Shown in pieces: positions 1,926 through 28,070 of a stretch of DNA of 47,788 bases. The notes below the pieces were generated by a model that was given only the letters and a program-made list of their open reading frames with translations, ran no database searches and was not told the origin of the DNA. Source of the DNA: Candidatus Epulonipiscioides saccharophilum (GTDB lineage Bacteria; Bacillota; Clostridia; Lachnospirales; Cellulosilyticaceae); assembly GCA_002007295.1 (NCBI GenBank), contig LNZM01000110.1, positions 1 through 47,788 of the forward strand. The letters are read 5' to 3'. The translations under genes were made by a program, and so were the position numbers. Numbering within the stretch: position 1 is the stretch's first letter; each line of letters begins with the position of its first letter.

Positions 1926-1952
1926 CTCTCTAGATTTTCTAGAGGGTTTTTT
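1926..1952 (+). terminator. Duplicated second terminator after flagellin 1
   Basis: CTCTCTAGA / TCTAGAGGG stem (two G-T pairs) with a T-run, a copy of the terminator at 1847-1874. Confidence 0.8.
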
Positions 1953-2004
1953 ATGCGCAAATATGCTAATAAGTTCTTCAATTTCGAAACATTGCAGGGA
2001 AATA

Positions 2005-2110
2005 GTACACTTAAGCCTTCCTCTTGAGGAAGGTGGCAGCGAAGCTGACGGATAGAGTAAAAGAGCGAAGCGATGCACTTGACATTTACTTTTTTCTCCA
2101 GCGAAGTAGG
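2005..2110. repeat. Degenerate copy of dispersed palindromic repeat (family A)
   Basis: Contains CCTTCCTC / GAGGAAGG, then GTCAGC-type inverted sequence (CAGCGAAGCTGACGG), AAGAGCGAAGCGATGC and CTCCAGCGAAGTAGG. The last motif recurs at 3680-3693. It is related to the cleaner copies at 3720-3800, 5395-5980, 24780-24925 and 28100-28215. No coding signal is seen. Confidence 0.55.
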
Positions 2111-2125
2111 AATAATATTTTATAC

Positions 2126-2213
2126 TTCTAAAAATTAACTAAGAGATTTTTTTATGATTTCTAAAAATTAATTAAGAAATTTTTTATGCTTTCTAAAAAT
2201 TAACATATTGTTT
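2126..2213. repeat. 32-33 bp tandem repeat, 2.5 copies
   Basis: TTCTAAAAATTAA begins at 2126, 2159 and 2191. The first two copies are followed by (A)CTAAGAGA or (T)TAAGAAA and a T-run ending in ATG. Each unit resembles a weak terminator, so this may be another degenerated terminator duplication. Confidence 0.7.
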
Positions 2214-2244
2214 CCATTTTTTAAAAAAAATTCCAAAAAAAGGC

Positions 2245-2271
2245 TAAAGTATTTTTTTGCTTGTCCGATAT
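2245..2271 (+). promoter_or_regulatory. sigma-D promoter of flagellin 2
   Basis: TAAA at 2245-2248, 16-nt spacer, CCGATAT at 2265-2271, an exact consensus match with the same spacing as flagellin 1. The leader of about 77 nt contains a potential hairpin AAAGGTT / AACCTTT at 2282-2303. Confidence 0.85.
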
Positions 2272-2354
2272 ATAATTTTGAAAAGGTTCTTGAAGAAACC
2301 TTTATAAAAAAAAAATAGGCAAGGATGCCGCGTTTATTCAAGGAGGAATTTAAT

Positions 2355-3593
2355 ATGAGAATTAATACTAACCTAATGGCGATCAATTCACAACGTAACC
2401 TAAATATCAATCAAGGTTATCAGGGTGGAGTTATGGAAAAGCTTTCATCTGGTCTTAGAATTAATAGAGCTGGAGATGATGCTGCGGGCCTAGCGATTTC
2501 AGAAAAGATGAGAAATCAGATCAAAGGTCTACAACAATCTAGCAAGAACTCTCAGGATGGTATATCATTGGTGCAGGTAGCAGAAGGTGCACTTGGTGAA
2601 ACACATGACATGCTAAAAAGAATGAGAGAGATGTCAATTCAGGCTATGAATGATACTTATACAAGTGAAGATAGAAAGAAATTGGATATAGAGTTAAAGC
2701 AACTTATTACAGAAATCGATGGATTAGCAGACAAGACGGAGTTCAATGAGCAAGGATTATTGCTTGGGGATCCATCTGGAGCTGGTAGAGATTCAGTGGC
2801 TGTGAAGCGTCAATCACTTACAATAATAATAGGAAGTTACTATGGAAAGATGGGTCAATACCAGTCTTTATTAGGAGCTGCTTATTCTATTGAAGCAGGA
2901 ACAAGTATGCTAGCAGCGCAAACTAAACTTCTTGATTTAGAGCAAAATATATCTGCTCTTGAAATCAAAGCAGCTGGTGAAAGTAATAAGGCTAAAGCAC
3001 AAGCGGTATTAGTAAGTGTAACTCAAAAACAAGCTTCATTAGAAAGTATCAAGGCGAGAATAGCAGCTATCGAAGCATCATCGGCGCAAAAGAAAGCATC
3101 GGCAGCAGTTAAGAAACAATCAGCTATTGATTGGGAGGCCGGATCAGTTGTTAGAGCAGCAAACGATCTTCAGGCTACAATGAACCAAGCAGTAGGTCCA
3201 AATGAGTTTACTTTCCAAGTTGGTGCTAACAACGACCAAATTATTAAGTTAAACATCAAAGCTATGGATGCTGTTGCACTTGGACTTACAGCAACAAAAA
3301 TCGATACAACTGAAAGTGCGCATATAGCACTAAATTCTATCGACGCTGCTGTAGAGATTGTTTCTCGTCAAAGAGCAGAGCTTGGTGCCGTTCAAAATAG
3401 ATTAGAGCATACAGTTAGAAACTTAGATAATACAGCTGAAAATCTTCAGTCTGCTGAGTCTCAAATCAGAGATGCTGATATGGCACAAGAGATGGTTAAC
3501 CTTACTCGAGTTAACATTTTGTCTCAAGCTTCTCAATCAATGCTAGCACAAGCTAACCAAGCACCCCAACAAGTTTTACAACTATTAGGTTAA
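2355..3593 (+). CDS. fliC: Flagellin 2 with helical central insert
   Basis: Second flagellin, 412 aa, with the same conserved N-terminal (MRINTNLMAINSQRNL, LSSGLRINRAGDDAAGLAIS) and C-terminal (SQIRDADMAQEMVNLTR, QAPQQVLQLLG) domains. The frame is open further upstream to 2325, but AGGAGGAATTTAAT precedes the ATG at 2355 and the other two paralogues start at the same residue. The central insert (about 140-278) is again Ala/Ser/Lys-rich (IAAIEASSAQKKASAAVKKQ) and differs most between paralogues, as expected for a surface-exposed segment. Own promoter and own terminator. Confidence 0.97.
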   Translation: MRINTNLMAINSQRNLNINQGYQGGVMEKLSSGLRINRAGDDAAGLAISEKMRNQIKGLQQSSKNSQDGISLVQVAEGALGETHDMLKRMREMSIQAMNDTYTSEDRKKLDIELKQLITEIDGLADKTEFNEQGLLLGDPSGAGRDSVAVKRQSLTIIIGSYYGKMGQYQSLLGAAYSIEAGTSMLAAQTKLLDLEQNISALEIKAAGESNKAKAQAVLVSVTQKQASLESIKARIAAIEASSAQKKASAAVKKQSAIDWEAGSVVRAANDLQATMNQAVGPNEFTFQVGANNDQIIKLNIKAMDAVALGLTATKIDTTESAHIALNSIDAAVEIVSRQRAELGAVQNRLEHTVRNLDNTAENLQSAESQIRDADMAQEMVNLTRVNILSQASQSMLAQANQAPQQVLQLLG

Positions 3594-3607
3594 TTAATGA
3601 TATATAT

Positions 3608-3644
3608 ACTCACTTAATGAATTTTTCATTAGGTGAGTTTTTTT
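3608..3644 (+). terminator. Terminator of flagellin 2
   Basis: ACTCACTTAATGAA / TTCATTAGGTGAGT long stem with one mismatch or G-T pair, followed by seven T. A partial copy (ATTCACT-T-AGTGAAT plus T-run) sits at 3859-3879 on the far side of a family A repeat. Confidence 0.9.
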
Positions 3645-3654
3645 ATGTGTTTTT

Positions 3655-3805
3655 TTAGGGGACTGTCGCTTCATAGACTCCAGCGAAGTAGGAACAATAT
3701 TAAGTTGTTGACCAATGGAGTTGACGTAAAATTGCGGGGGAGGTGTCAGCGTTAGCTGACGGAGGGAGAAAGCGTGCATACAAGTTTTTGTTACTTCTAA
3801 GTAGT
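3655..3805. repeat. Dispersed palindromic repeat, family A
   Basis: Contains CTCCAGCGAAGTAGGAACAATATT, then GGGGGAGGTGTCAGCGTTAGCTGACGGAGGG with hairpin TCAGCGTTAGCTGA, then AGAAAGCGTGCATACAAGTTTTTGTTACTT. The tail AGAAAGCGTGC marks several other copies (5944, 17644, 24898, 28172). The copy lies between two versions of the flagellin 2 terminator. Confidence 0.75.
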
Positions 3806-3858
3806 TAATTTTCTTAAATTCCCATGTATGGAGTTAGGGCGATAAATTGAAGATATAT

Positions 3859-3879
3859 ATTCACTTAGTGAATTTTTTT
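3859..3879 (+). terminator. Partial second copy of the flagellin 2 terminator
   Basis: ATTCACT-T-AGTGAAT followed by seven T, preceded by GATATATAT as in the first copy. It probably arose by duplication and was later separated by the family A repeat. Confidence 0.65.
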
Positions 3880-3967
3880 ATGTATCGTTAAACAGCTTGT
3901 TTATCAATTGATGCACCGATTGATTTTCCAATCTGAATTTTATTTTTTAATTTTTTTAAAATTATAC

Positions 3968-3994
3968 TAAAGTTTATTTATTTTAATACGATAT
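3968..3994 (+). promoter_or_regulatory. sigma-D promoter of flagellin 3
   Basis: TAAA at 3968-3971, 16-nt spacer, ACGATAT at 3988-3994, one mismatch from consensus. The leader is about 90 nt. Confidence 0.8.
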
Positions 3995-4091
3995 ATATAT
4001 TAGAAAATAAAACAATAAAAAATGAAAATAATAGGTCTCATATCATAAAATGGCATGGACGCTATATTGAATATTCAGGGAGGAATTTAAT

Positions 4092-5330
4092 ATGAGAATT
4101 AATACAAATTTATTAGCAGTAAATTCACAAAGGAATTTAGGAATCAATCAAGCAGATCAAGGATCAATAATGGAGAAATTATCATCCGGGCTACGAATTA
4201 ATCGAGCTGGAGATGATGCGGCCGGATTGGCGATCTCCGAAAAGATGAGAAATCAAATAAAAGGGTTACAACAATCTAGTAGAAATTCAGAGGATGGGAT
4301 ATCCTTAATACAAACAGCAGAAGGGGCATTGGGAGAGACTCATGAAATGTTAAAAAGGATGAGAGAAATGTCCATTCAAGCAATGAATGAAACTTATACA
4401 AGTGAAGACAGAAAAAAATTGGATATAGAGTTGCAACAACTTATTACAGAAATAGATGGTGTTGCAGATAAAACACAATTTAACGAACAAGACTTATTAT
4501 TAGGAGATCCAACAGGCAAAGGTCTTGATAAAGTAGCATCTGCAAGAGTAAAATTAACAAGCGCACAAGCAAACTATTTCAATAAGATGGGTGAGTATCA
4601 ATCTGCTCTAGGAGTAGCTTATTCTATAGAGAATGCTACGAGTGTAATGCAGGCAAAAGATTTAATTATTAAATTGGAGCAAGACATAGCAGCGTTAGAA
4701 ACTAAGGCGGCGGGAAAAAGTGATGCAGCATCAGCGCAAGCAATTTTAAAGAGTGTAACAGATAAGCAAGTATCATTAGCAAGCGCACATGCGATTATAG
4801 CACGTGAGGAGGCAAAAGGTGCATCCGTAAAAGCTTCAGCCGAAGCAATTAGGTTAGTAGCAGCTTCAATTGAAAGAACATCTGTTGTTCCTGCAGCCGG
4901 AGAGGTTCAAGCAGCGATGAACCAAGAAGTTGGCCCAAATGAATTTAATTTTCAAGTTGGAGCTAATAATGGCCAAAATATTCAATTAAATATTAAAGCT
5001 ATGAATGCTATAGCACTTGGATTAATAGCAACAAAGATAGATACAGCGGAAAGTGCTGACTTGGCGCTAAGCACAATAGATGCGGCGGTAGAAATCGTAT
5101 CAAGACAACGAGCAGAACTCGGTGCGGTGCAAAATAGATTGGAGCATACGGTTAAGAATCTAGACAATACAGCTGAGAATTTACAGTCTGCGGAATCCCA
5201 AATTAGGGACGCTGATATGGCTCAGGAAATGGTTAATCTAACTAGATCCAATATTCTTGCGCAAGCTTCTCAATCTATGTTGGCTCAAGCCAACCAAGCT
5301 CCCCAACAAGTTCTTCAATTATTAGGCTAA
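4092..5330 (+). CDS. fliC: Flagellin 3 with helical central insert
   Basis: Third flagellin, 412 aa. The N- and C-terminal filament domains are almost the same as in the other two (MRINTNLLAVNSQRNL; SQIRDADMAQEMVNLTR; QAPQQVLQLLG). The insert (about 140-278) again has short helical periodicity (IAREEAKGASVKASAEAIRL). The start follows AGGGAGGAATTTAAT. The promoter is slightly weaker than those of the other two. The three copies are full length with no frameshift, so all are probably functional, perhaps building a mixed filament. Confidence 0.97.
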   Translation: MRINTNLLAVNSQRNLGINQADQGSIMEKLSSGLRINRAGDDAAGLAISEKMRNQIKGLQQSSRNSEDGISLIQTAEGALGETHEMLKRMREMSIQAMNETYTSEDRKKLDIELQQLITEIDGVADKTQFNEQDLLLGDPTGKGLDKVASARVKLTSAQANYFNKMGEYQSALGVAYSIENATSVMQAKDLIIKLEQDIAALETKAAGKSDAASAQAILKSVTDKQVSLASAHAIIAREEAKGASVKASAEAIRLVAASIERTSVVPAAGEVQAAMNQEVGPNEFNFQVGANNGQNIQLNIKAMNAIALGLIATKIDTAESADLALSTIDAAVEIVSRQRAELGAVQNRLEHTVKNLDNTAENLQSAESQIRDADMAQEMVNLTRSNILAQASQSMLAQANQAPQQVLQLLG

Positions 5331-13961: not shown

Positions 13962-14684
13962 CTAACTTGCATTTTCAAAGTCAGAATAATAAGTTTGGCC
14001 ATCTATTGTATATTCTATACTATAGTGATTCGGAGTTTGAGTTTTAGTATCGGGATAAGTTATAAAGGCGCTGAAGTCAGTACATCCGCCAGCTTTTCGA
14101 ATAGCACTTTCGAGGTCAGATTGAGCACCGTATCTATTTACTTTACTGTCCTGTGGTGTTATGTTATAAGCATTGGAAACACCGCCTAATGAATCTGCAA
14201 TGACGTGACCTTCATCTAAAGTGGGACTTTCGGTTCCTGGAACTTTGGCCTCATCGGAATAATATCGACCGGATTTTAAAACAGGTTCTGAATCATCATC
14301 TTGAAGAATAATTTTTTCGGCGAAAACGGCAACTAGTTGGCCGTATTCATTGGTGATAGCATAGTAATCACGGTCACCATAGCCGATGTCAACAATTACG
14401 TTAGGTTCTCTATGACCGGATAAGTTTCCACCTTCCACTTCTAACCATTTATGATCGGCTAATAAATTTAGGTCTGCAATATTTTCGACATCATTTAAAT
14501 CTTTCACAGTTTCTTGTGTGGTAGTTTTTTGTATGGTAGTTTCTTTTTGAGGAGTTTCTTTTTGAGCATTCTCTAAAGTAACTTTGTTTTTATCTACCGT
14601 TTTTTTCTCATTTATGCCACATCCGGATAAACATAAAGATGTTATTACAGTGGCGCTACATAAAATCGTTAAATACTTTTTCAT
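13962..14684 (-). CDS. DNA/RNA non-specific endonuclease lipoprotein
   Basis: Secreted nuclease of the endonuclease NS / Spd-Sda1-like type, 240 aa. Lipobox LSGC puts Cys22 as the lipid anchor, followed by a Thr/Gln/Lys-rich linker to about residue 70. The nuclease domain carries LDEGHVIADSLGG, the counterpart of the DRGH motif with the general-base His, and NITPQDSKVNR with the metal-binding Asn. The frame is open further upstream, but AGGAGAAAAAAT precedes this ATG and the lipobox then falls at the right distance. It would degrade extracellular or incoming nucleic acid. A paralogue with a different anchor lies immediately upstream. Confidence 0.88.
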   Translation of the reverse strand: MKKYLTILCSATVITSLCLSGCGINEKKTVDKNKVTLENAQKETPQKETTIQKTTTQETVKDLNDVENIADLNLLADHKWLEVEGGNLSGHREPNVIVDIGYGDRDYYAITNEYGQLVAVFAEKIILQDDDSEPVLKSGRYYSDEAKVPGTESPTLDEGHVIADSLGGVSNAYNITPQDSKVNRYGAQSDLESAIRKAGGCTDFSAFITYPDTKTQTPNHYSIEYTIDGQTYYSDFENAS

Positions 14685-14801
14685 TATTTTTTCTCCTGAA
14701 TTAATTTGATAGATCAACTTTTAGTTGTAGTTACTCATGTGATCTGTTTACAAAATTTATTACTTTTGAGGTACTGCTACCTCGTAATTATATCATGAAA
14801 T

Positions 14802-14835
14802 GAAAAAATGAGCTACCCCTTTTTGAACGCTCGTT
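14802..14835 (-). terminator. Terminator after the second nuclease gene
   Basis: Minus-strand reading: GAGC, 15-nt loop, GCTC, then ATTTTTTC. Related in sequence to the element at 5958-6024. Confidence 0.6.
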
Positions 14836-14844
14836 TTGTGATTA

Positions 14845-14892
14845 ACCTCTCAGTCACTGCGTGACAGCTCTCCTAGAAGGAGAGTCTAGTTA
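14845..14892. repeat. Dispersed palindromic repeat, family B
   Basis: CCTCTCAGTCACTGCGTGAC followed by AGCTCTCCTAGAAGGAGAG: two adjacent hairpins, GTCAC-TGC-GTGAC and CTCTCCT-AGA-AGGAGAG. Same family as 15905-15965, 26174-26222, 42225-42270 and 47270-47310. Confidence 0.85.
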
Positions 14893-15741
14893 ACTTGCAT
14901 TTTCGAAGTTAGAATAATATACCTGACCATCGATAGTATATTTGTAACTATAATAGCTTGGAGTTTGAGTTTCATTATTGGGATAGCTTATTACGGCACT
15001 GAAGTTGGTACATCCACCGGCTTTCCGGATAGCTTTTTCCATTTCTGCTTGAGCGCCATGTCGATTGACGGTACTATCTTGAGGTGTTATGTTGTAAGCA
15101 TTGGATACTCCACCTAATGAATCAGCAATGACGTGACCTTCATCTAATGTTGGGCTTTCGGTTCCTGGAACTTTGGCCTCATCTGGATAATATCGACCGG
15201 ATTCTAAAACAGGCTCGGTACGATCATTTTGCAAAATAATTTCGTCGGCTAGAACAACAACGAGTTGACCGTACTCATTGGTTATAGCATAGTAATTGCG
15301 GTTACCAAATCCTATATTAACAATTACGTTTGACTCTCGGTGACCAGATAAATCTCCACCATCTACTTCTATCGTTTTATGTGTATCCAATAATTTTATG
15401 TCTGCAACGTTTTTTATGTTAGTTAAACTGTTTTCGGATACTGCCTGTTCGGATTCAGCTGACGCTCCGTTTTCGGCCGTATTTTCGTTTTGCGATGTAC
15501 TTTCTTGTGTGGTTGTCGTCGCTTCACTTGCTTTATCATTGGATGATGAACTAGATAACTTAGGTGTCTTTACAACGATAGAAGTATTTTTAATTTTAGG
15601 TAATTTGAATCCGAACATTGAAAATATTTGAGCTACAAATAATATGGCTCCAAGAATTGCAATAAGGTATATTTTACTTCGCACTCCAAAATATACTACT
15701 AATGTCAGTATTAAAAAAATAAAAATTTCCGACTTACGCAT
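14890..15741 (-). CDS. Membrane-anchored non-specific endonuclease, paralogue
   Basis: Paralogue of the preceding lipoprotein nuclease, 283 aa. The C-terminal 165 residues are very similar, with the same LDEGHVIADSLGG and NITPQDSTVNR catalytic blocks. The N-terminus is unrelated: two hydrophobic segments (about 5-20 and 24-44) and then a 60-residue Ser/Thr/Glu/Asn-rich linker. So the same catalytic domain is presented on a transmembrane anchor instead of a lipid. The start follows AAGGAGGTAATTAAGC. The stop codon falls at the edge of a family B repeat. Confidence 0.87.
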   Translation of the reverse strand: MRKSEIFIFLILTLVVYFGVRSKIYLIAILGAILFVAQIFSMFGFKLPKIKNTSIVVKTPKLSSSSSNDKASEATTTTQESTSQNENTAENGASAESEQAVSENSLTNIKNVADIKLLDTHKTIEVDGGDLSGHRESNVIVNIGFGNRNYYAITNEYGQLVVVLADEIILQNDRTEPVLESGRYYPDEAKVPGTESPTLDEGHVIADSLGGVSNAYNITPQDSTVNRHGAQAEMEKAIRKAGGCTNFSAVISYPNNETQTPSYYSYKYTIDGQVYYSNFENAS

Positions 15742-17826: not shown

Positions 17827-19269
17827 TTACTTCGTGAGAGCATTTTTAATTCCATTTTTTAATATATCCTTTAAATATTTTGTTACTTGCTCTTCTAAAT
17901 CGGCTAATTTACTTAAATCGGTCTGCCAAAACTCGGACAAGGTTTTGTGGACAATTTCTTCTATACTATCTTTGGTTTTCCATAATTGATGGAAAAAGTC
18001 TAGGGATTCGAGGTCATCTTTAATTTTATAAGTTTGGCCGTTGTCTCGGTGACCGATGTAATCGTCGCCTTGTTTTTCTATTTGATAAAATCTTATTAAT
18101 CCGGCGATAGAAAATGCAAATTGTTTTGGTGCGGCATTAAATTTATTTACATAATCCAGTATTGTTGGGATACATCGAGCTTCAAATTTCGAAGTATTAT
18201 TAAGAGTTATATCTATCAGGTTGTGAACGATATGAGGATTATCAAATCTTTCTAAAACAGAATCTGCGAAGCTTCTTAATTCGGCCAAGTCCATGTTGGT
18301 AGCAGGAATTATTTCGTTACTAATTAAGTCTTTTTCGAATTGGCCAAAAGTATCGTCTCTAAAAAATTCTAATACTGTGTTAAAACCGGCTAAATACGCT
18401 AAAGGAACGACAGCGGTATGGCTACCATTTAGGATACGAACTTTTCTTTTTTTATACGGCGTTACATCTTCTGTCCAAATTACGTTGGCTGCCGTTTTAT
18501 GAATTGGTAATCTATCTTTATATTTTTCATCTGCTTCGATTACCCAAAGGTTGAAAGATTCGCAGGCTACTACCATTTTGTCTTCGTATCCTAATTTTTC
18601 GGTTATTGATTCTATTTCATTTCTCGGATATCCGGGTACGATTCTATCGACTAAGGTACTGGCAAATTCATTATTTTTTTCTATCCAGGTTTTAAATTCT
18701 TTTTCTAAATTCCATTCATCAGCATATTGTAAGACGAATTTTTTTAACATTGCACCGTTGTTGTCGATTAATTCTACAGGTAAAAGTAGCATACCTTTAT
18801 TTGGATCTGCATTAAAAAATTTATAGCGATGATATAAGAAGGCGCAAATCTTTGCAGGAAATGATTTTTGAGGAGCATTCTCTAATTTTTCTTCCTTATA
18901 ATAGGTAATTCCTGATTCGGTAGTATTCGAAATAATTACTTCTAAATCCGGACTTTCGGCTAATCGAACCAATTCGGAATAATCTTCATAAGGATTTATG
19001 CAGCGAGAAATTGAGTGGATAGTCTTAAATGTTTCTGCATTTCCGCCTCTCATTAATACGTTGTATAAACAATCCTGGCTATTTAGTAGTTCACCTAAAC
19101 CTTCTTGTATTGGTTGACAAATTACTATTCTGCCTTGATATTCTTCGGTTTCGTTTGCTAATTCCACCATCCAGTCTGCAAAAGCTCTTAAAAAATTACC
19201 TTCTCCAAATTGTAATATTTTTTCTGGGTATTGCGTAAATTTTTTCTCTACTACTGTTTTTATATTCAT
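17827..19269 (-). CDS. uxaB: Tagaturonate reductase (altronate oxidoreductase)
   Basis: NADH-dependent reduction of D-tagaturonate to D-altronate, in the Ashwell-type hexuronate route. 480 aa, the usual length. The N-terminal nucleotide-binding domain has LQFGEGNFLRAFADWMV. The catalytic region contains KKRKVRILNGSHTAVVPLAYL, the conserved Lys-Asn-His cluster of the mannitol dehydrogenase family. The start follows GGAGGGTTTTAATTC. It is transcribed away from the sugar operon at 19634 and shares with it an operator sequence, so the two sides are probably induced together. No altronate dehydratase (uxaA) or uronate isomerase (uxaC) is in the window. Confidence 0.93.
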   Translation of the reverse strand: MNIKTVVEKKFTQYPEKILQFGEGNFLRAFADWMVELANETEEYQGRIVICQPIQEGLGELLNSQDCLYNVLMRGGNAETFKTIHSISRCINPYEDYSELVRLAESPDLEVIISNTTESGITYYKEEKLENAPQKSFPAKICAFLYHRYKFFNADPNKGMLLLPVELIDNNGAMLKKFVLQYADEWNLEKEFKTWIEKNNEFASTLVDRIVPGYPRNEIESITEKLGYEDKMVVACESFNLWVIEADEKYKDRLPIHKTAANVIWTEDVTPYKKRKVRILNGSHTAVVPLAYLAGFNTVLEFFRDDTFGQFEKDLISNEIIPATNMDLAELRSFADSVLERFDNPHIVHNLIDITLNNTSKFEARCIPTILDYVNKFNAAPKQFAFSIAGLIRFYQIEKQGDDYIGHRDNGQTYKIKDDLESLDFFHQLWKTKDSIEEIVHKTLSEFWQTDLSKLADLEEQVTKYLKDILKNGIKNALTK

Positions 19270-19300: not shown

Positions 19301-19317
19301 GTCTGGTAGCACCAATT
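19301..19317. promoter_or_regulatory. GntR-type operator O1 (uxaB side)
   Basis: CTGGTAGCACCAATT. The core TGGT-NNN-ACCA fits FadR/UxuR-type operators. It lies about 10 bp past the predicted uxaB start of transcription. It is identical over 14 bases to O2 at 19554-19570. Confidence 0.8.
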
Positions 19318-19553: not shown

Positions 19554-19570
19554 AATTGGTAGCACCAATT
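19554..19570. promoter_or_regulatory. GntR-type operator O2 (operon side)
   Basis: AATTGGT-AGC-ACCAATT, a perfect 7-bp inverted repeat around three bases, a few bases after the predicted start site. The position suits repression by a roadblock. The likely binder is the GntR regulator encoded at 27347-28042. Confidence 0.85.
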
Positions 19571-19633: not shown

Positions 19634-20764
19634 ATGCATTTAAAAGGAATTACTTGGAATCACACCAGAGGAAAATTACCTGTACTTGCTACAGCGCAAA
19701 GATACATGGAAATGCATCCTGGTGTTACAATAGATTGGCAGGCTAGATCGTTAAAAGAATTTGGCGATGCTCCTATTGATATATTAGCCCAAGACTACGA
19801 TTTAATAATACTAGATCATCCATGGATGGGCTTTGCAGCAGAAAATAAAATTTTGTTACCTTTAGAACATTTTTTAGAGCCAGAATTTTTAGCAGATCAA
19901 AAAGCAAATTCTGTTGGTAAATCTTTTCAAAGTTACAATTACACTCATCAATATGCTCTCGCTATCGATGCTGCTTGTCCGATAGCTTTTTATTCTAATG
20001 AAAAGTTAAAGGCTGATAATGCGAGCTTACCTACGACTTGGTCCGAAGTGATAGATTTGGCTAAACGAGGAAAAGTTTACTGCGGTGGTAATGGCACAAG
20101 TATCCTCATGCAATTCTATATGCTTCTTGCTACTAAAACGGATGAAAAACTTTTTGTTGACGGTATTATAGCAGATAAAGAAATACAAAAAGAAAGTTTA
20201 CTAGAAATACAAGAACTTTTCAGTTATTTACCGAACTGTGTATTTTCTAAAAATCCGATTGGAGTATATGAAGTTTTGGCGAGTCCAAAAACAGAATATT
20301 ATTATTGTCCGTGCGATTTTGGTTATTCTAATTACTCTCGAGTCGGATACAGTTCTAACCTAATCACCTCGGCTAACGTGGTAAAATATAATGGCAAAAT
20401 GTTAAAAACGACGCTAGGCGGAGCGGGATTTGCGATTTCGAATAAATGTAAAAATATTGAGTTAGCGCTAGATTATTTAAAATACACTGCATCGGGAGAA
20501 ATACAGCAAAGTATTTATGTAGAAAATGGAGGGCAACCTGGCCATAGAAGTGCTTGGACGAATAGTCGGGCCAATGAGCTAACAAATAGCTTCTTTAATA
20601 ATACTCTTGAAACATTGGATAATGCATATTTACGTCCACGCTATGACGGTTATTTAAGTTTTCAAGAAACAGCTGGTCCGCTAATTCGGGATTGGATTAT
20701 GAACGAAGGTAATGTGGATGAACTTATTGATAATATTCATGATCTTTTTATCTACAGCATATAA
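19634..20764 (+). CDS. Solute-binding-protein fold without signal peptide
   Basis: 376 aa, related to family 1 extracellular solute-binding proteins (features such as DLIILDHPWMGFAAENKILLPLE, ACPIAFYSNEKL, GGAGFAISNKCKNIELALDYLKY). Unlike those, it starts directly with the first strand of the mature fold (MHLKGITWNHTRGKLP) and has no signal peptide, lipobox or membrane segment. AAGGAGAGAATTTTT before the ATG leaves no room for a longer start. It therefore should stay in the cytoplasm, as a ligand sensor, sugar or CoA-ester carrier, or enzyme partner. It is the first gene of the operon, 32 bp before the CoA-transferase, with no permease genes nearby. Confidence 0.85.
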   Translation: MHLKGITWNHTRGKLPVLATAQRYMEMHPGVTIDWQARSLKEFGDAPIDILAQDYDLIILDHPWMGFAAENKILLPLEHFLEPEFLADQKANSVGKSFQSYNYTHQYALAIDAACPIAFYSNEKLKADNASLPTTWSEVIDLAKRGKVYCGGNGTSILMQFYMLLATKTDEKLFVDGIIADKEIQKESLLEIQELFSYLPNCVFSKNPIGVYEVLASPKTEYYYCPCDFGYSNYSRVGYSSNLITSANVVKYNGKMLKTTLGGAGFAISNKCKNIELALDYLKYTASGEIQQSIYVENGGQPGHRSAWTNSRANELTNSFFNNTLETLDNAYLRPRYDGYLSFQETAGPLIRDWIMNEGNVDELIDNIHDLFIYSI

Positions 20765-20796
20765 GTTTATTGGATGAAAAAAATTAGGAGGCAGAA

Positions 20797-23127
20797 ATGA
20801 AACCGTTAGAAGGAATAATTGTGTTGGATTTTGCTCAGTATTTAGCAGGACCATCCGCAGCTTTAAGACTAGCAGATTTAGGTGCTAGGGTTATAAAAAT
20901 AGAAAGGCCACAGGGTGGAGATAATGGACGAAGGTTAGTATTTAAAAATTTAATATCAGATAACGATGGCGTTTTGTTTCATACTATTAATCGAAACAAA
21001 GAAAGTTTTTGTGCGGACTTAAAAAATTTGGATGATTTAAAGATCGTCAAAGAATTAATCAAAAAAGCAGATATAATAATAGAAAATTTTAGACCAGGGA
21101 TAATGGAAAAACTGGGACTTGGTTATGAAGACGTAAAAAAGATTAATCCTAAATTAATTTATGCTACAGTATCTGGATACGGATTAGATGGTCCATGGGT
21201 AAAACGACCGGGCCAAGATCTTATGCTGCAATCTTTATCAGGGCTAACATTATTAAACGGAAGCCGAGACGATCTACCAACGCCTGTGGCGCTTGCTATG
21301 GCTGATACATATGCTGGTATACATTTAGTTCAGGGGATCCTATCATGTTTGTATAGCAGATTTAAAACTGGTGTTGGCGCAAGAGTGGCGGTAAGTTTGT
21401 TGGAATCTATTTTAGATTTACAATTTGAATTTATAGCTACGTATATAAATGATAATTATACTTTACCAGTTAGGGCTAAATTTAACAATGCTCATGTTTA
21501 TTTACCGGCTCCTTATGGTATTTATCAAACTAAGGATAATTTTTTAGCTTTAGCGATGGGATCCGTACCGCTTCTTGGAGAAATTTTAGAGCTTAGTGAG
21601 TTATCTAAGTATGACAATCCGGCTAGTTGTTTTGCAAATCGAGATGAAATCAAAGAATTGATCCAGTCCAAACTAATTCAGGATTCTACCGAAAATTGGT
21701 TGACTAAATTAAAAGAGGTCAATTATTGGGCATCAGAAGTTTTGAATTGGAAAGAACTTATAGATCGTCCGGGATTTAAGTCCTTAGACATGTTAATCAA
21801 TGTCGGTAGACCCGGCCATAGAGATATTATCACAACAAGATGTCCTATTAGGGTTGATGGAGAAGTTTATAAATCCAATAAATGGGCACCAGCTTTGGGT
21901 GAAGATACCTCGAAAATTATGAAAGAATTTAACTTATGTTCTCAGCCAATAGAATCTAGTTCTAAATTAGCCGTAGAATCTAGTTCTGAAAATAATTTGG
22001 TTTTGCCTTTAGCCGGTGTTAAAGTGCTAGATTTGTGTCAATTTTTGGCTGGTCCTTCTGCGGCTTTACGATTAGCGGATTTAGGGGCCGAAGTTCTTAA
22101 GGTAGAACAACCTTCTGGGGATATTTGTAGAACTCTTTATTCTTCTAATTTGATTATCGATGGCGATAGCACTTTATTTCATGTAATTAATCGTAATAAA
22201 GATGCTGTATCCATAGATTTAAAATCAGATGTTGGTCAACTTCAGATTCAGAAGTTAGTTAAAAATGCGGATGTCGTTTTGATTAATTTTAGACCTCATG
22301 TGGCCAAAAAATTAGGTATAGATTACGATTCTTTAAAAGTCATTAATCCTAGCTTAGTCTATGGTGAACTTACCGGATTTGGGCATGTCGGTGAATGGGC
22401 TAACGAGCCAGGTCAGGATTTGCTAGTACAATCTATTTCTGGGATGACTATGGCTAACGGTAACCGAGATAAGTTGCCTACTCCGGCCGGTGTGTCTATA
22501 GCAGATTTGATTAGTGGTCAACATTTAGTTCAGGGCGTTCTGGCTGCGCTTCATCGAAAAGAATTATTTGGGAAAGGTGCTTTGGTGCAGATTAGCATGC
22601 TAGAGTCTATGATGGATCTTCAATTTGAAGGATTTACTACTTTTCTTAATGACGGAAATGAAATTCCTCAGCGTAGCAAAATTAGCAATGCAAACTTTTA
22701 CACGAATGCACCGTACGGTATTTACAAAACTAAAGATTGGTTTATTACTTTAGCGATAGCACCGATTCCTTTACTTGGCCAGTTACTTAATTGTCCAAAA
22801 CTAGAAGAATACAGCGATCCGGTTACATGGTCTACAAAACGTGATGAAATAAAAGCTATTTTAGCTGACCATCTATTAACTAACAACACTCAGTTTTGGC
22901 TCGATATATTACAGCAACATGATATTTGGTGTTCTAACATATATAATTGGGATATGTTATTGGAAACGGATGCTTTTAAAAATTTAGAAATGCTACAAGA
23001 AATAAAATTACAAAGTGGCAAAACCATGACAGTTTTAAGATGCCCTATTTCGATTAACGGCCAGCGATTTTATTCCGATAAACCATCACCTAAAATAGGT
23101 CAGGATAATCATAAATATTTAAATTAA
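20797..23127 (+). CDS. Fused tandem CaiB/BaiF family III CoA-transferase
   Basis: 776 aa: two complete family III CoA-transferase domains in one chain, residues 1-382 and 405-776, joined by a Ser-rich linker (about 385-400). The halves align with an offset of almost exactly 400. Both have the N-terminal VLD-QFLAGPSAALRLADLGA block, NFRPG/NFRPH, and the catalytic Asp that forms the acyl anhydride (D170 in AMADTYAG, D570 in SIADLISG). Family members are usually interlocked dimers of single-domain chains of about 400 aa, so this fusion could form the two-domain ring from one gene. It transfers CoA between carboxylic acids; the acid here is unknown. 20 bp before maoC. Confidence 0.93.
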   Translation: MKPLEGIIVLDFAQYLAGPSAALRLADLGARVIKIERPQGGDNGRRLVFKNLISDNDGVLFHTINRNKESFCADLKNLDDLKIVKELIKKADIIIENFRPGIMEKLGLGYEDVKKINPKLIYATVSGYGLDGPWVKRPGQDLMLQSLSGLTLLNGSRDDLPTPVALAMADTYAGIHLVQGILSCLYSRFKTGVGARVAVSLLESILDLQFEFIATYINDNYTLPVRAKFNNAHVYLPAPYGIYQTKDNFLALAMGSVPLLGEILELSELSKYDNPASCFANRDEIKELIQSKLIQDSTENWLTKLKEVNYWASEVLNWKELIDRPGFKSLDMLINVGRPGHRDIITTRCPIRVDGEVYKSNKWAPALGEDTSKIMKEFNLCSQPIESSSKLAVESSSENNLVLPLAGVKVLDLCQFLAGPSAALRLADLGAEVLKVEQPSGDICRTLYSSNLIIDGDSTLFHVINRNKDAVSIDLKSDVGQLQIQKLVKNADVVLINFRPHVAKKLGIDYDSLKVINPSLVYGELTGFGHVGEWANEPGQDLLVQSISGMTMANGNRDKLPTPAGVSIADLISGQHLVQGVLAALHRKELFGKGALVQISMLESMMDLQFEGFTTFLNDGNEIPQRSKISNANFYTNAPYGIYKTKDWFITLAIAPIPLLGQLLNCPKLEEYSDPVTWSTKRDEIKAILADHLLTNNTQFWLDILQQHDIWCSNIYNWDMLLETDAFKNLEMLQEIKLQSGKTMTVLRCPISINGQRFYSDKPSPKIGQDNHKYLN

Positions 23128-23147
23128 AAATAAAAGGAGAGTTTAAA

Positions 23148-23588
23148 ATGATAAAAGACATATTTTTTGAAGATTTTCAAATAGGTCACCTTAGAGAAGG
23201 CGGATCTCGTACAATGACAGAAACTGATTTTGTTTTACATGCTGGGCACACTGGTGATTTTTATCCTCATCACGTAGATGCAGAGTTTTGTAAGAGTACA
23301 GAATTTGGCCAAAGGATAGCACATGGAACTATGATTTTTAGTATTGGTATGGGTTTACAATGTGGAGATATAAATCCTAGAGCTTTTACTTATGGTTATG
23401 ATAGAATGCGCTTTATTAAGCCGGTCTTCATTGGTGATACGATTAAAACTGTGGTGAAAATTAAGGATAAACGAGATAATCCTAAAAATCCAGCCCGTGG
23501 ATTTGTGACAGAACAGATTGAAATTACTAATCAAAAAGGCGAGTTAGTTTTAGTTTGCGAACATATTATCAGTGTTGAAAAAAAGTAG
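23148..23588 (+). CDS. MaoC-like (R)-specific hydratase
   Basis: 146 aa, hot-dog fold. The hydratase motif is present: D37 and H42 in TGDFYPHHVDAEF, followed by GQRIAHGTMIFSIG. These are the catalytic Asp/His and oxyanion-hole region of (R)-enoyl-CoA hydratases, so it likely adds or removes water on a CoA thioester, matching the CoA-transferase upstream. The start follows AAAGGAGAGTTTAAA. Its last 23 codons are repeated, decayed, right after the stop. Confidence 0.9.
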   Translation: MIKDIFFEDFQIGHLREGGSRTMTETDFVLHAGHTGDFYPHHVDAEFCKSTEFGQRIAHGTMIFSIGMGLQCGDINPRAFTYGYDRMRFIKPVFIGDTIKTVVKIKDKRDNPKNPARGFVTEQIEITNQKGELVLVCEHIISVEKK

Positions 23589-23668
23589 AGTAAAAATATG
23601 AAATCACTAATCAAAAGGTGAACTTGTCCTAGTTTGTAAACATATTATTAGTGTTGAAAAAAATAGAG
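23521..23668 (+). repeat. Tandem duplication of the maoC 3' end
   Basis: AAATTACTAATCAAAAAGGC onward (23521-23590) is repeated as AAATCACTAATCAAAAGGTG onward (23601-23668), about 80 bp apart, with roughly ten substitutions and two single-base gaps. The copy has lost the reading frame and leads into the zinc dehydrogenase ribosome binding site. Confidence 0.9.
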
Positions 23669-23683
23669 GAGTGTGTATTTATA

Positions 23684-24700
23684 ATGAAAGAAATTATGAT
23701 GCAAAATGCTTTTGATGTCGCTATTTTAGAAAATGAAATGCCGGTTGCTAAAGAAGGGGAAGCATTATTAAAAATTTTATACGGTGGAATTTGCGGAAGC
23801 GATCTTAGCAGTTATCGTGGGACGATGAAATACATCAATTATCCTACAGTGCCTGGTCATGAATTTTCAGCTGAAATAGTTGAAATCGGCGATAATGACA
23901 AAGGGCTTAAATCCGGAGACCTTGTTACAGCGATACCGTATTTTAATTGCGGTCATTGTTATTCTTGCCAAAAAGGCTTAGTTAATTGCTGTTCTACAAA
24001 CCAAACCATGGGCATACACAGGACCGGAGCATTCGCAGAATATATCACATTACCAGTGGAAAGATTATTTGCTGGCAATGGTTTATCGGCCAAAACATTA
24101 GCGTTAGTAGAGCCATTTTGCATAAGTTATCATGGAATTAAAAAAGCTAACATTCAAAAGGGTGATAAAGTTCTTATCGTTGGGGCTGGGACGATCGGCG
24201 TGTTAGCAGCGATTGCGGCCTTAGAGAATGAGATAGAATTGACTATTTGTGATATATCGCAAAGCAAGGTAGATTATGCGAAAAAATTTGGCGTTCAAAA
24301 TACTATATGCAACAGTAGTCCGGAAGTGTTTGCTGCCGAAGTTAATCGACTTACGGACGGAAATGGTTATGACATTGTAGTAGAGGCCGTTGGGCTACCA
24401 AGTACATTCCAAAATTGCATGGATGCCGTAGCTTTTGGCGGCAAAATGATTCAACTAGGTGTTGGTAAGCAAAATGTGGATTTATTTTTTACGACTATCC
24501 AACAAAAAGAGCTTAGCATTTATGGATCCCGAAATGCTAGAAGAGAAGATTTTAAGGAAGCCATAGAGTTGCTTTCAAGTGGCAAAATCAAGGTAGATGA
24601 TGTAGTAACAAATATGTACAACTTCGAAGATGCTCCAAAAGCATTTGCAGATTTCCACTCTAATGCAGGATCGATGTTAAAGGTTATGATTGAGTTTTAA
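23684..24700 (+). CDS. Zinc-dependent medium-chain dehydrogenase (candidate L-aldonate 5-dehydrogenase)
   Basis: 338 aa, sorbitol/threonine dehydrogenase-like. Catalytic zinc ligands C37 (GGICGSD) and H59-E60 (GHE). Structural zinc cysteines C89, C92, C95, C103. NAD fold with VGAGTIGVLAA. The upstream in-frame ATG at 23651 lies in the duplicated maoC tail, and AGAGGAG before 23684 supports the shorter form. Related enzymes include L-galactonate 5-dehydrogenase (LgoD/YjjN of E. coli), which makes D-tagaturonate, the substrate of the co-regulated UxaB; that substrate is an inference from context. Confidence 0.88.
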   Translation: MKEIMMQNAFDVAILENEMPVAKEGEALLKILYGGICGSDLSSYRGTMKYINYPTVPGHEFSAEIVEIGDNDKGLKSGDLVTAIPYFNCGHCYSCQKGLVNCCSTNQTMGIHRTGAFAEYITLPVERLFAGNGLSAKTLALVEPFCISYHGIKKANIQKGDKVLIVGAGTIGVLAAIAALENEIELTICDISQSKVDYAKKFGVQNTICNSSPEVFAAEVNRLTDGNGYDIVVEAVGLPSTFQNCMDAVAFGGKMIQLGVGKQNVDLFFTTIQQKELSIYGSRNARREDFKEAIELLSSGKIKVDDVVTNMYNFEDAPKAFADFHSNAGSMLKVMIEF

Positions 24701-24714
24701 ATAAGAATGAAAAT

Positions 24715-24930
24715 GAAAAATATTGCGGGAACTTAAGATTGAAAGTGTATAGAGAAACATTACGGGGCTAGAGCACCATAAGAATCCCTCAGATATTGTT
24801 TCTGCTTCGCTGGAAAGGGAGCTGTCACAAAATTGTGGGGAAGCGGTGCCTCCCTCTCCGAGGGGAGGTGTCACGAAGTGACGGAGGGAGTTGGAGGGAG
24901 AAAGCGTGCCTTTTAGTTGTATTTTAAATT
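24715..24930. repeat. Family A repeat inside the operon
   Basis: Contains GCGGGAACTTAAG, GGAAAGGGAGCTGTCACAAAA, GGGGAAGCGGTGCCTCC, CCGAGGGGAGGTGTCACGAAGTGACGG and AGAAAGCGTGCCTTTTAGTTG, the same modules as in the 94-bp array. It separates the zinc dehydrogenase from the mutarotase by 258 bp, and its hairpins could reduce or uncouple expression of the downstream genes. Confidence 0.85.
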
Positions 24931-24958
24931 AAGAGTGAAAAATATAGGAGGCGAATTT

Positions 24959-25282
24959 ATGCAAAGATATGGGCAAGTAATTAAAGTGAAACCGGATCAA
25001 ATAGAGAACTATAAATATCATCATAAAAATTCTTGGCCGGAAATAAATGCTATGATTAAGGAATGTAATATACAAAATTATTCCATTTATCTTAAAGATG
25101 ATTTTCTATTTAGCTATTTCGAGTACGTTGGTTCTGATTATGACTCTGACATGGCAAAAATGGCCGCCGATAAGAAGACACAAGAGTGGTGGGATTTGGT
25201 AAAGCCGTATCAAACACCATTAAAAACTAAGCAACCTGGAGAATGGTGGGCCGATATGGAAGAAGTATATCATTTAGATTAA
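24959..25282 (+). CDS. L-rhamnose/L-fucose-type mutarotase (RhaM-like)
   Basis: 107 aa, the usual size of the RhaM family (DUF718), which interconverts alpha and beta pyranose anomers. Family blocks are RYGQVIKVKPDQIENYKYHH, SWPEI, SIYLKDDFLFSYFEY and TQEWWDLVKP, with the catalytic His in YKYHH and the paired Trp present. The ATG at 24959 is chosen because AGGAGGCGAATTT precedes it; a longer frame starts inside repeat DNA. 25 bp before the lactonase gene. It fits an L-sugar substrate. Confidence 0.88.
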   Translation: MQRYGQVIKVKPDQIENYKYHHKNSWPEINAMIKECNIQNYSIYLKDDFLFSYFEYVGSDYDSDMAKMAADKKTQEWWDLVKPYQTPLKTKQPGEWWADMEEVYHLD

Positions 25283-25307
25283 AGGAAAACGAGGTGAATA
25301 TTAAAGA

Positions 25308-26168
25308 ATGCAAAAAATTATAGATGCACATTTTCACATATTTGACGTAGATCGGTTTACTGTTGAATGGCTAAAAGATGTAGAGATTTTAAATAGACCA
25401 ATTTTATTAGAAGAGTTCGAAGCATTTAAAAATACAGAAGAGTACGACTTAACCGGTGCTGTCCATATAGAATTGGATAGTATAGCGAGCCAAAAGGGGG
25501 CTGAAAACGATTATTTTTCGAATTTGGCAATAGAAAGAGGAGATTTTGTTAAGGCAGTCATTTTGTATGCTAACATGCTAGATCCAAACATGTCGGATTT
25601 CATTTCTCCTTATTGTTCTAATGACCGTGTTCTTGGCGTAAGGCGTATTTTACATGTAGATGAAACGCCGCCGGGCACGTGTCTAAATAATGTTTTTATT
25701 GAGAATGTAAAAAAATTGGGAGCCTTAGATCTGCATTTTGAAGCATGTATGCGATCTGGCGAAATGGGAGATTTATATAAGTTAGCTAAGCAATGTCCGA
25801 ACACGTTAATTGTTTTAAATCATATGGGTTTGCCTGATGTTGCGGCCTTAAAGGATCCATCTCGTATTGTCGAAATAGATCGTTGGAAACATGGCATTCT
25901 TTTGCTTGCTACTTTAGATAACGTGGTGTGCAAAATATCCGGATTATCGAGTAGTGAACCTAAAGAGATAGAAGAGATAGTTGGATTCTGTACCAGCCAA
26001 TTTGGCCCAGAGAGAATAATGTTTGCTAGCAATTTTCCGGTTTGTAATTTGAGCATAGACTTTGATAGTTGGACCAAAGCGATGCTAGAGCTTTTTGCCA
26101 ATAAAACATCAGCCGAGCGAGATTTATTTTTCTATAAAAATGCTGAACGAATTTATAAAATAAAATAG
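25308..26168 (+). CDS. COG3618-type sugar lactonase (amidohydrolase 2 family)
   Basis: 286 aa TIM-barrel amidohydrolase. The N-terminal metal motif IDAHFHIFD (HxH), VLNHMGLPDV with the barrel His, and FASNFPVCNLSIDFDSW match L-fucono- and L-galactono-1,5-lactonases of COG3618. It should open the lactone made by the sugar dehydrogenase. The ribosome binding site GAGGTG lies about 12 nt before the ATG, slightly far. It sits between the mutarotase and a Gfo/Idh dehydrogenase, which supports the lactonase role. Confidence 0.85.
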   Translation: MQKIIDAHFHIFDVDRFTVEWLKDVEILNRPILLEEFEAFKNTEEYDLTGAVHIELDSIASQKGAENDYFSNLAIERGDFVKAVILYANMLDPNMSDFISPYCSNDRVLGVRRILHVDETPPGTCLNNVFIENVKKLGALDLHFEACMRSGEMGDLYKLAKQCPNTLIVLNHMGLPDVAALKDPSRIVEIDRWKHGILLLATLDNVVCKISGLSSSEPKEIEEIVGFCTSQFGPERIMFASNFPVCNLSIDFDSWTKAMLELFANKTSAERDLFFYKNAERIYKIK

Positions 26169-26230
26169 TAGGCTCTCTTGGCTCTCCTTTTAGGAGAGCT
26201 GTCAACGAAGTTGACTAAGAGGTTAATCCA
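26169..26230. repeat. Family B repeat inside the operon
   Basis: GGCTCTCCTTTTAGGAGAGC, TGTCAACGAAGTTGAC, TAAGAGGTTAATCC: two hairpins (GCTCTCCT-TTT-AGGAGAGC and GTCAAC-GAA-GTTGAC). The variant GTCAAC/GTTGAC replaces GTCAC/GTGAC with pairing kept. It directly precedes the ribosome binding site of the next gene. Confidence 0.85.
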
Positions 26231-26242
26231 AGGAGGTAAGAA

Positions 26243-27319
26243 ATGATAAAAGATATATCCGAATTAAAATATGTACCTGCGATGCCGGAGGATCCAAAAG
26301 CTAGACCAATATACATAGTCGGTGCAGGTGAAATTATTAAGGATGCGCAAGCGCCAGCATACATTTTAGCAGGATATCCGATGAAAGGTATTTACAACCG
26401 AACGGTTGCGACAGCGCATAAAGTGGCCAAAGAATTTGGTATCGAAAAAGTTTACGAAGATCTAGACGAGATGATTGCGGATTGCCATGCTAATAACGGT
26501 GTTTTTGATGTAGCATTGCCTGCTAATTTAACTGCTATGGTTTTACGCAAATTACCAGAAGGTAGCGGTGTTTTAGTTCAAAAGCCTATGGGTGAGAGTA
26601 TAGAAGAGGCGACAGAAATTTTAAATATTTGTAGAGAGCGAAATCTTGTGGCTGGTGTAAATTTTCAACTACGTCAAGCGCCGTATATGATTCAACTGAA
26701 TGAATTATTAAATAGTGGATTAATTGGTGAAATATACGATGTAGAATGGCGTGTGATTACTTTACAACCTTGGCATTTATGGACCTTTTTAAATGATAAA
26801 GAAAGATGCGAAATAAATTATCACAGCATTCATTACATAGATGCTATCAGATCGATTTTCGGTGATCCAACTGCTGTTTGGTGCAAAACAATGAAAAGTC
26901 CCAAAGCACCGAATCTTAGTCAAACATCCAGTTCTATCATACTAAATTACGGCGAAGATATTCGAGTAACGATCAATACAAATCATGGCCATGATTTTGC
27001 GCCCGACTATCAAGATTCTTGTTTAAAAATTGAGGGCACAAAAGGTGCTATAAGACTAACTTTAGGATTGATTTTAAATTATCCAGAAGGTCGCCCTGAC
27101 AAATTAGAATACGTTATAGATGATGGAAAAGGATGGCAAGAAATACCGATTGTTGGTAGCTGGTTTCCAGAAGCTTTCATTGGTTCTATGGGCGGTTTAT
27201 TAAAAAAAATGGAAGATCCTTCTTTTAATTATATGAACAGTGTAGAAGATGCATATAACACGATGCGAGTTGTAGAAGCTTGCTACAAATCTAGCCAAAG
27301 TGGTGGTACTCTTATTTAA
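26243..27319 (+). CDS. Gfo/Idh/MocA family dehydrogenase
   Basis: 358 aa NAD(P)-dependent oxidoreductase. The N-terminal Rossmann fold starts with IYIVGAGEIIKDAQAPAYILAGY. The catalytic Lys is in VLVQKPMGES, where the usual EKP reads QKP. NYHSIHYIDAIRSIFGDP supplies the conserved His/Asp region. The start follows AAGGAGGTAAGAA. In this operon it is the best candidate for the first oxidation of a free sugar to its lactone, although it could also oxidise another ring position. Confidence 0.88.
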   Translation: MIKDISELKYVPAMPEDPKARPIYIVGAGEIIKDAQAPAYILAGYPMKGIYNRTVATAHKVAKEFGIEKVYEDLDEMIADCHANNGVFDVALPANLTAMVLRKLPEGSGVLVQKPMGESIEEATEILNICRERNLVAGVNFQLRQAPYMIQLNELLNSGLIGEIYDVEWRVITLQPWHLWTFLNDKERCEINYHSIHYIDAIRSIFGDPTAVWCKTMKSPKAPNLSQTSSSIILNYGEDIRVTINTNHGHDFAPDYQDSCLKIEGTKGAIRLTLGLILNYPEGRPDKLEYVIDDGKGWQEIPIVGSWFPEAFIGSMGGLLKKMEDPSFNYMNSVEDAYNTMRVVEACYKSSQSGGTLI

Positions 27320-27346
27320 AATTATTTGAATGGACGTGATGATTAA

Positions 27347-28042
27347 ATGGACTTAACTCCAGTAACCAAAGTGACCATAACAGAACAAATAATGGAACAA
27401 TTGGCAAATCAAATTATATCGGGTAGTTTAAAGCCGGGTGAACAATTGCCGACTGAACGTGACTTAGCAGAAATTTTTGATGTTACCAGAGGCCGGGTTC
27501 GTGAGGCTTTAAGAGCGTTATCTCTTATTGGAATGATTATAATAAAACCCGGTGGCGGTAGTTTTGTTTGTAATAAAGACGTTCTGATTCCTAATCGAAC
27601 TATATCCTGGATGTATCATGAAGAATTAAATAATCTGAAGGATATTTATTCGGCTAGACGCTTGATTGAATCCGAGATCTATTTGTCCTGCTTTGATATT
27701 GCAGATCGGCAAACTATTATTCATATCCGAAAGTTGGTCTCTCAGCTGGATAGCCAATTAAGCCCAGCAGCATTCTTAGATCAGCTGAATAGTTTAGATT
27801 TATATGTAAGCTCCAAGTGTGGCAATGGCGTTTACCATAAACTTATGCAAACACTCGTTCTTCTTAGATCTGAATCTTCTATTAACATACTAGGATCAGA
27901 TGAGACCAAATTGTCGGCAATAGAACATAGAAAAAAAATTGTCTCGGCTTTTGAAAAGAATAACCGTATACTATTAGAAAAAAGCTTGGCCGATTTTTTT
28001 AATGATTCTCTAAATTATATCTTGGATCAAGATCAGGATTAA
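27347..28042 (+). CDS. GntR family regulator, FadR-type (FCD domain)
   Basis: 231 aa. Winged-helix domain at residues 9-76 (TEQIMEQLANQIISGSLKPG, TERDLAEIFDVTRGRVREAL, GGGSFV), then an all-helical FCD-like ligand domain. The usual metal-binding His in the FHxxI-ASGN stretch is missing: here it reads LYVSSKCGN. A later His (IEHRKKIVSAF) is kept. It is the last gene of the operon with a weak ribosome binding site (GTGATGATTAA). It is the likely repressor for operators O1 and O2, whose TGGT-NNN-ACCA cores match this subfamily. Confidence 0.9.
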   Translation: MDLTPVTKVTITEQIMEQLANQIISGSLKPGEQLPTERDLAEIFDVTRGRVREALRALSLIGMIIIKPGGGSFVCNKDVLIPNRTISWMYHEELNNLKDIYSARRLIESEIYLSCFDIADRQTIIHIRKLVSQLDSQLSPAAFLDQLNSLDLYVSSKCGNGVYHKLMQTLVLLRSESSINILGSDETKLSAIEHRKKIVSAFEKNNRILLEKSLADFFNDSLNYILDQDQD

Positions 28043-28043
28043 A

Positions 28044-28070
28044 CCTCTCTAAATGAGAGGATTTTTTTTT
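28044..28070 (+). terminator. Terminator of the CoA/sugar operon
   Basis: CCTCTC-TAAAT-GAGAGG followed by nine T, directly after the gntR stop codon. Confidence 0.92.

Follow-up and report, generated by a model that had tools for sequence, protein, structure and literature searches.

A candidate coenzyme A-dependent dehydration module for sugar acids, with a cytosolic binding-protein partner, in Candidatus Epulonipiscioides saccharophilum

Introduction

The aspartate-based transfer chemistry of family III coenzyme A (CoA)-transferases is established, and cycles that combine a CoA-transferase with a dehydratase are known for cinnamoyl-CoA:phenyllactate and for bile acids (BaiF/BaiE). The carnitine system likewise pairs a family III transferase carrying a catalytic aspartate, CaiB, with an enoyl-CoA hydratase, CaiD, and recycles CoA from product to substrate. 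Here we describe a three-gene module of comparable composition from Candidatus Epulonipiscioides saccharophilum (GenBank assembly GCA_002007295.1, contig LNZM01000110.1, positions 1 to 47,788, hereafter the window), encoding a solute-binding protein (SBP) without signal peptide, a fused double CaiB-type transferase and a MaoC-type hydratase. We propose that it runs a CoA cycle of the carnitine type on sugar acids, with a cytosolic SBP as an unusual partner, in which product-to-substrate recycling of CoA would be a further likeness. As compared with the carnitine-type cycles, the module stands in a sugar operon, uses interchangeable MaoC or enoyl-CoA hydratase (ECH) proteins and has paired or fused CaiBs besides the SBP.

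The aldonate dehydratase families named in the literature are IlvD/EDD, enolase and altronate dehydratase (PMC9795676, PMC6336799). The reaction proposed here has the same net outcome as that of the enolase, IlvD/EDD and UxaA dehydratases, the conversion of an aldonate into a 2-keto-3-deoxy-aldonate; however, the latter are metal or iron–sulphur enzymes acting on the free acid, whereas the module would use a CoA thioester (PMC9795676, PMC6336799). The closest sugar pathway is the nonphosphorylating L-fucose route, FucM-FucA-FucB-FucC-FucF/G or FucH (PMC11199699). The window operon shares its mutarotase, dehydrogenase and lactonase types, and many clusters homologous to this operon hold the full pathway. 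It differs from that pathway in the addition of CaiB, SBP and MaoC and in the absence, among its genes, of an aldonate dehydratase of the FucC type, which is present in the alphaproteobacterial clusters. None of PMC6336799, PMC9795676 and PMC11199699 contains the term CoA. A full-text search of 5.39 million open papers, a collection that excludes most subscription literature, returned no description of a CaiB/SBP/MaoC module, and a paper on gaps in catabolic pathways makes no mention of it under the terms searched.

Results

An earlier note on this DNA had placed the trio at 19634–23588 as a possible CoA-dependent module inside a sugar-acid operon, with a double CaiB-type transferase and a MaoC hydratase retaining its catalytic Asp and His. 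The open reading frame (ORF) list and Pfam agree with it in coordinates and families (Table 1), and the catalytic residues are in place. PF02515 matches the transferase at full length twice, and the catalytic Asp (D169 of Frc) is present in each half, as it is in all 31 CaiB copies aligned. The fusion is the sole CaiB gene found in the genome. Its halves are 45% identical to one another and, outside the family, each is closest to its own Bacteroidota counterpart; the pairing of CaiBa with CaiBb, a feature of Epulonipiscium and Bacteroidota, together with their fusion in the window, fits an obligate pair. The MaoC domain carries the Asp with the His five residues later (GDFYPHH). This pair is retained in the MaoCs of the module, and the catalytic Glu motifs are matched in six of its seven ECHs. 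Two positions after the catalytic Asp, where hydratase 2 enzymes usually have Asn, the module MaoCs have Tyr or Phe. The closest solved relative of the window MaoC is the Sinorhizobium meliloti MaoC 4FFU (E 8.6e-59), a structural-genomics protein for which the PDB gives the molecule name ‘oxidase’ only and implies no dehydratase function. A MaoC encoded in an L-fucose-type cluster of S. meliloti pSymB (L035:3762-4223) is identical to 4FFU over 143 residues.

The transferase stays below the curated cut-offs of several characterized groups. The carnitine route, which the earlier note had named as a possible refutation, is not indicated, since the score of 191.2 bits lies below the NF002914 equivalog cut-off of 413; the other route named there, bile acid metabolism, was judged by the context of the operon, which is that of sugar. 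Formyl-CoA, oxalate, succinate–glutarate and mesaconate CoA-transferases were likewise rejected (419/750, 379/522, 353/442, 343/700 and 337.5/504 bits, score/NCBIfam equivalog or subfamily cut-off).

Table 1. Features of the module, its operon and the divergent neighbour (window positions, unless a locus is named)
Feature	Position	Strand	Remarks
Signal-less solute-binding-like protein (SBP)	19634..20764	+	376 aa; Pfam SBP_bac_1, E 9.5e-15; family motifs TWxHxRG, DHP, DAA, RPR invariant
Fused double family III CoA-transferase, CaiBa-CaiBb	20797..23127	+	776 aa; Pfam CoA_transf_3 twice, E 1.2e-184
MaoC-type (R)-enoyl-CoA hydratase/3-hydroxyacyl-CoA dehydratase	23148..23588	+	146 aa; Pfam MaoC_dehydratas, E 1.1e-22
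Zinc alcohol dehydrogenase (Zn-ADH)	23684..24700	+	ORF opens 23651 GTG; likely start ATG 23684
RhaM-type deoxysugar mutarotase	24959..25282	+	ORF opens 24917; likely start ATG 24959
Amidohydrolase resembling L-fucono-lactonase	25308..26168	+	Pfam Amidohydro_2; NF052480 96 bits, cut-off 400
Gfo/Idh/MocA dehydrogenase	26243..27319	+	40–45% identity to alphaproteobacterial and Bacteroidota cluster counterparts
GntR-family regulator, FadR-type	27347..28042	+	FCD domain match slightly below cut-off
Intrinsic-terminator-like hairpin closing the operon	28044..28060	+	
Tagaturonate reductase UxaB, divergent	17827..19269	-	NF002969 594.7 bits, cut-off 359
FadR/GntR-type operator-like site TCTGGTAGCACCAAT	19302..19316		uxaB side of divergent promoter region
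Second operator-like site ATTGGTAGCACCAAT	19555..19569		upstream of SBP gene
Second SBP family, apparently signal-less, members	L007:15667-16794, L008:15436-16668, L025:15446-16705, L030:5426-6613		

The genes of the trio are closely linked. Among 29 distinct loci (the window, L001, L007–L026 and L028–L034), CaiB adjoins the SBP gene in 26, lies nearby in two (Jannaschia and Streptomyces ITFR-6) and is absent in one, and a MaoC or an unrelated ECH occurs in 28, the MaoC of S. meliloti being about 18 kb away from the SBP. The SBP family is sharply bounded, as two different queries with limits of 1e-10 and 1e-20 each retrieved 145 plasmid records; CaiB and SBP stand together in one place in 141 records, counted with a joined query of which 80% or more had to be matched in one place. 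In several loci (e.g. L010, L012, L024, L031) the two frames share four bases, whichever gene comes first, which suggests that their expression is coupled.

Carriers of the signal-less SBP belong to Bacillota, Bacteroidota, Alpha- and Betaproteobacteria and Streptomyces. Candidatus Epulonipiscium viviparus (E. viviparus), the nearest named relative among the genomes scanned, has the gene order of the window with two separate CaiB genes. The order recurs in G009, a genome from a second genus of the family, where an apparent sugar ABC transporter, judged from the ORFs, is inserted in the operon. The G009 Gfo/Idh gene (L028:3279-4354) is split across two overlapping frames, by a frameshift or an assembly error. 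Absence of the trio from relatives, which would have told against the earlier note, is thus not what we find: several phyla have kept the module, and almost all of the operons concerned are for sugars or sugar acids. Chance neighbourhood in one draft genome was rejected, the order being kept in relatives and the genes being kept together across phyla. A widespread Bacillota pathway was also rejected: five genomes of the relatives set, which numbers 96 and contains the window's own, were positive, and among 398 genomes sampled evenly from the phylum the window's own was the single carrier, so that the module was probably acquired. On the Streptomyces sp. ITFR-6 plasmid (L015:7364-23348), transposase genes lie around and inside an SBP-FAH-CaiB-MaoC-ALDH set, which suggests mobility.

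The genes that replace parts of the module point to what it does. A crotonase-fold ECH takes the place of MaoC in Sinorhizobium, Rhizobium, Azospirillum, Variovorax, Streptomyces NBC_00184 and one genome of the window's order; as enoyl-CoA chemistry is the trait that the two unrelated folds share, the swap points to an enoyl-CoA/3-hydroxyacyl-CoA step. Conversely, the Microvirga ossetica plasmid (L033:9934-15759), the exception among the 29 loci, keeps the SBP and lacks both CaiB and hydratase; two UxuA-family proteins are encoded directly upstream of the SBP gene, with an SMP-30 lactonase, an SDR and an aldose epimerase behind. This is the pattern expected of functional replacement. The swap of hydratases, and the fact that CaiB and hydratase are missing together where UxuA dehydratases occur, thus support the hydration or dehydration step that the earlier note had suggested. 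As a separate observation, DUF4432-type ‘aldose 1-epimerase family’ proteins accompany ECH-type modules (L019, L022, L026, L031, L034), where they occupy the place that RhaM has in MaoC-type modules.

The Azospirillum operon has the order SDR-CaiB-SBP-ECH-FAH-ALDH, followed by an ABC importer. Its FAH protein resembles 2-keto-3-deoxy-D-arabinonate dehydratase (2q18, E 1.7e-16) and lacks the His-x-x-Glu motif that marks diketo-acid hydrolases (PMC6336799), and among the genes typed there is no IlvD, enolase or UxaA protein. Hence the steps flanking aldonate dehydration are encoded, and only CaiB, SBP and ECH are left between them. The loci of Variovorax and two Streptomyces largely repeat this gene set; in Martelella, a second cluster lacks the SBP gene but encodes SDR, CaiB, ECH and FAH. 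The Azospirillum operon also bears on the idea that the trio is an end-product CoA shuttle for a short sugar-derived acid, such as lactate or another hydroxy acid, rather than for an aldonate. L-Fucose routes do release lactate or lactaldehyde (PMC11199699), and small acids are substrates of some CaiB relatives. However, MaoC and ECH need a 3-hydroxyacyl- or 2-enoyl-CoA, which is not directly obtainable from lactate, and the Azospirillum operon apparently ends in 2-oxoglutarate via FAH and ALDH, without such an acid; we therefore regard a short-acid shuttle as very improbable.

Upstream of the ATG of the SBP gene the frame stays open for nine more codons only (385 aa open frame), which leaves no room for a signal peptide; the earlier description of the protein as cytosolic is borne out in this respect, and a secreted SBP with a misannotated or missed start was rejected. 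The window protein thus lacks the export signal of an ABC-transporter SBP. In most homologues the TWxHxRG motif lies at residues 2–12, and two cases of a later position stem from early TTG starts. The fold is nevertheless that of an SBP: PF01547 matches, SBPs make up most of the PDB profile matches, and the listed fold matches of a structure model are SBPs; this model, built from a four-row alignment, has a mean pLDDT of 65 and is usable for the overall fold only. Sixteen SBPs, the window protein and 15 homologues 28–71% identical to it, have 41 invariant columns, and the invariant polar residues include H10, R12, D61, H62, D112, Y231, Y234, Q301, R334 and R336.

Such conservation raises the question of whether the SBP fold itself is the catalyst, with CaiB and MaoC merely preparing or finishing the substrate. 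Binding-protein folds do occur in enzymes, namely MqnA/MqnD and thiaminase I, and the SBP alone of the trio survives in Microvirga. Yet the nearest sequences and, as far as the low-confidence model goes, the nearest folds are ordinary sugar-binding proteins, and a single fixed ligand would explain the strong conservation equally well, so that a catalytic SBP appears to us quite unlikely. The cytosolic SBP probably binds the acid sugar on behalf of the transferase. Clusters of Bacteroidota and Croceibacterium, which have two CaiBs, encode SBPs of another, distinct family, apparently signal-less too and found with Gfo/Idh (Table 1).

The trio opens an operon at 19634–28042 that continues with Zn-ADH, RhaM, amidohydrolase, Gfo/Idh and GntR genes. 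We propose that the Gfo/Idh/MocA protein is a sugar 1-dehydrogenase and that the Zn-ADH oxidizes a 2-keto-3-deoxy acid or a sugar. The mutarotase (50 bits, equivalog cut-off 99.6) and the lactonase (Table 1) belong to the families expected for L-fucose but both score below the equivalog cut-offs, so that L-fucose as the substrate is not proven. The pattern TGGTNNNACCA, which we take to be the operator form of FadR-type GntR regulators, has three matches in the window against 0.32 expected, two of them, at 19304 and 19557, in the divergent promoter region; E. viviparus has a corresponding pair of sites. Since such a site is common to both sides and UxaB is retained next to the operon in related genomes, UxaB probably shares the regulon of the trio operon, where it would make D-altronate. 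Elsewhere in the window, three tandem flagellin-like genes (602–5330) were recognized from their translations only, and two adjoining paralogous ORFs (13962–15741) have a common C-terminal nuclease-like half and differing N-termini.

Discussion

We give slightly better than an even chance to a reading in which the trio acts as a CoA-cycling aldonate dehydratase and would run a carnitine-like cycle on sugar acids. In the window, the RhaM mutarotase, the Gfo/Idh dehydrogenase and the amidohydrolase lactonase would yield an aldonate by an L-fucose-type route. CaiB would then load CoA from an acyl-CoA onto the carboxylate of the aldonate by its aspartate-based chemistry, and as the thioester lowers the pKa of the alpha proton, MaoC or ECH could eliminate water between C2 and C3. 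The resulting 2-enol would tautomerize to 2-keto-3-deoxy-aldonyl-CoA, from which CaiB would pass CoA to the next aldonate, freeing the 2-keto-3-deoxy acid, so that CoA would be needed in catalytic amounts only. In Methylobacterium nodulans (L032:10327-14723) the order MaoC-CaiB-SBP is followed by an AMP-binding acyl-CoA ligase, which could prime the cycle; PdxA and four-carbon acid sugar kinase genes lie near this trio. From the product, the window pathway may proceed by aldol cleavage or by oxidation through the Zn-ADH. No FAH-family protein was found in the Epulonipiscium genomes, which makes a FucG-type end unlikely and aldol cleavage the likely end; KDPG-type aldolases are present in these genomes.

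The analysis shows the gene content, its conservation, the catalytic residues, the co-occurrence of the genes and the pattern of replacement; from these we infer the substrate, the direction of the reaction, the transfer and recycling of CoA and the part played by the SBP. L-Fuconate is the most probable substrate in the window, or else an acid that matches it in C2–C4 configuration. D-Altronate, L-galactonate and D-arabinonate have one C2–C4 configuration in common, and a single altronate-family dehydratase accepts them as well as L-fuconate (PMC6336799); UxaB, which would form altronate, shares the operator-like site.

Several observations weigh against a CoA-cycling aldonate dehydratase. 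In alphaproteobacterial L-fucose clusters the module stands beside an enolase-type fuconate dehydratase, and in the Ponticoccus L-fucose cluster UxaA-type genes are found with it in place of the latter. The Epulonipiscium genomes encode enolase-, UxaA- and IlvD-family proteins elsewhere; the CoA cycle does not account for the necessity of the SBP; and sampling outside Bacillota consisted of plasmids only. The co-occurrence with a classical dehydratase in alphaproteobacteria suggests either that the module handles another sugar acid entering through the same importer or that it performs a different step there. It could thus be a CoA-dependent module for a side substrate, an O-methylated, epimeric or blocked deoxy-sugar acid, processed for example by methanol elimination or by C2/C3 epimerization, ordinary aldonates being left to the classical dehydratases. 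The clusters that combine the module with FucD or UxaA have another enolase-family protein as well, which is consistent with a side substrate, as are the racemases among the relatives of CaiB; these relatives also include enzymes acting on small acids. Clusters with the fuconate dehydratase further encode an SDR resembling KDF dehydrogenase and frequently the hydrolase. In Azospirillum, Variovorax and Streptomyces, however, the module is the sole candidate for dehydration between the sugar dehydrogenase and the 2-keto-3-deoxy-acid dehydratase, and we consider a side substrate unlikely.

A further and more tentative proposal, to which we give somewhat less than an even chance, is that a transport-type SBP has become an obligatory cytosolic partner of the CoA-transferase, or a catalytic subunit, in an undescribed kind of aldonate dehydratase that handles sugar acids as CoA thioesters and serves deoxyhexoses and pentoses in several phyla. 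In the literature that we found, sugar-acid dehydration is otherwise known only with metal or iron–sulphur dehydratases, and the CoA-thioester route would, if true, be a new type of step in the breakdown of deoxysugars and pentoses. It would account for many of the ‘extracellular solute-binding protein’ and ‘CoA transferase’ annotations in rhizobia, marine bacteria, Streptomyces and gut bacteria. It would also give a function to 4FFU and provide a case of a transport binding protein reused within the cell.

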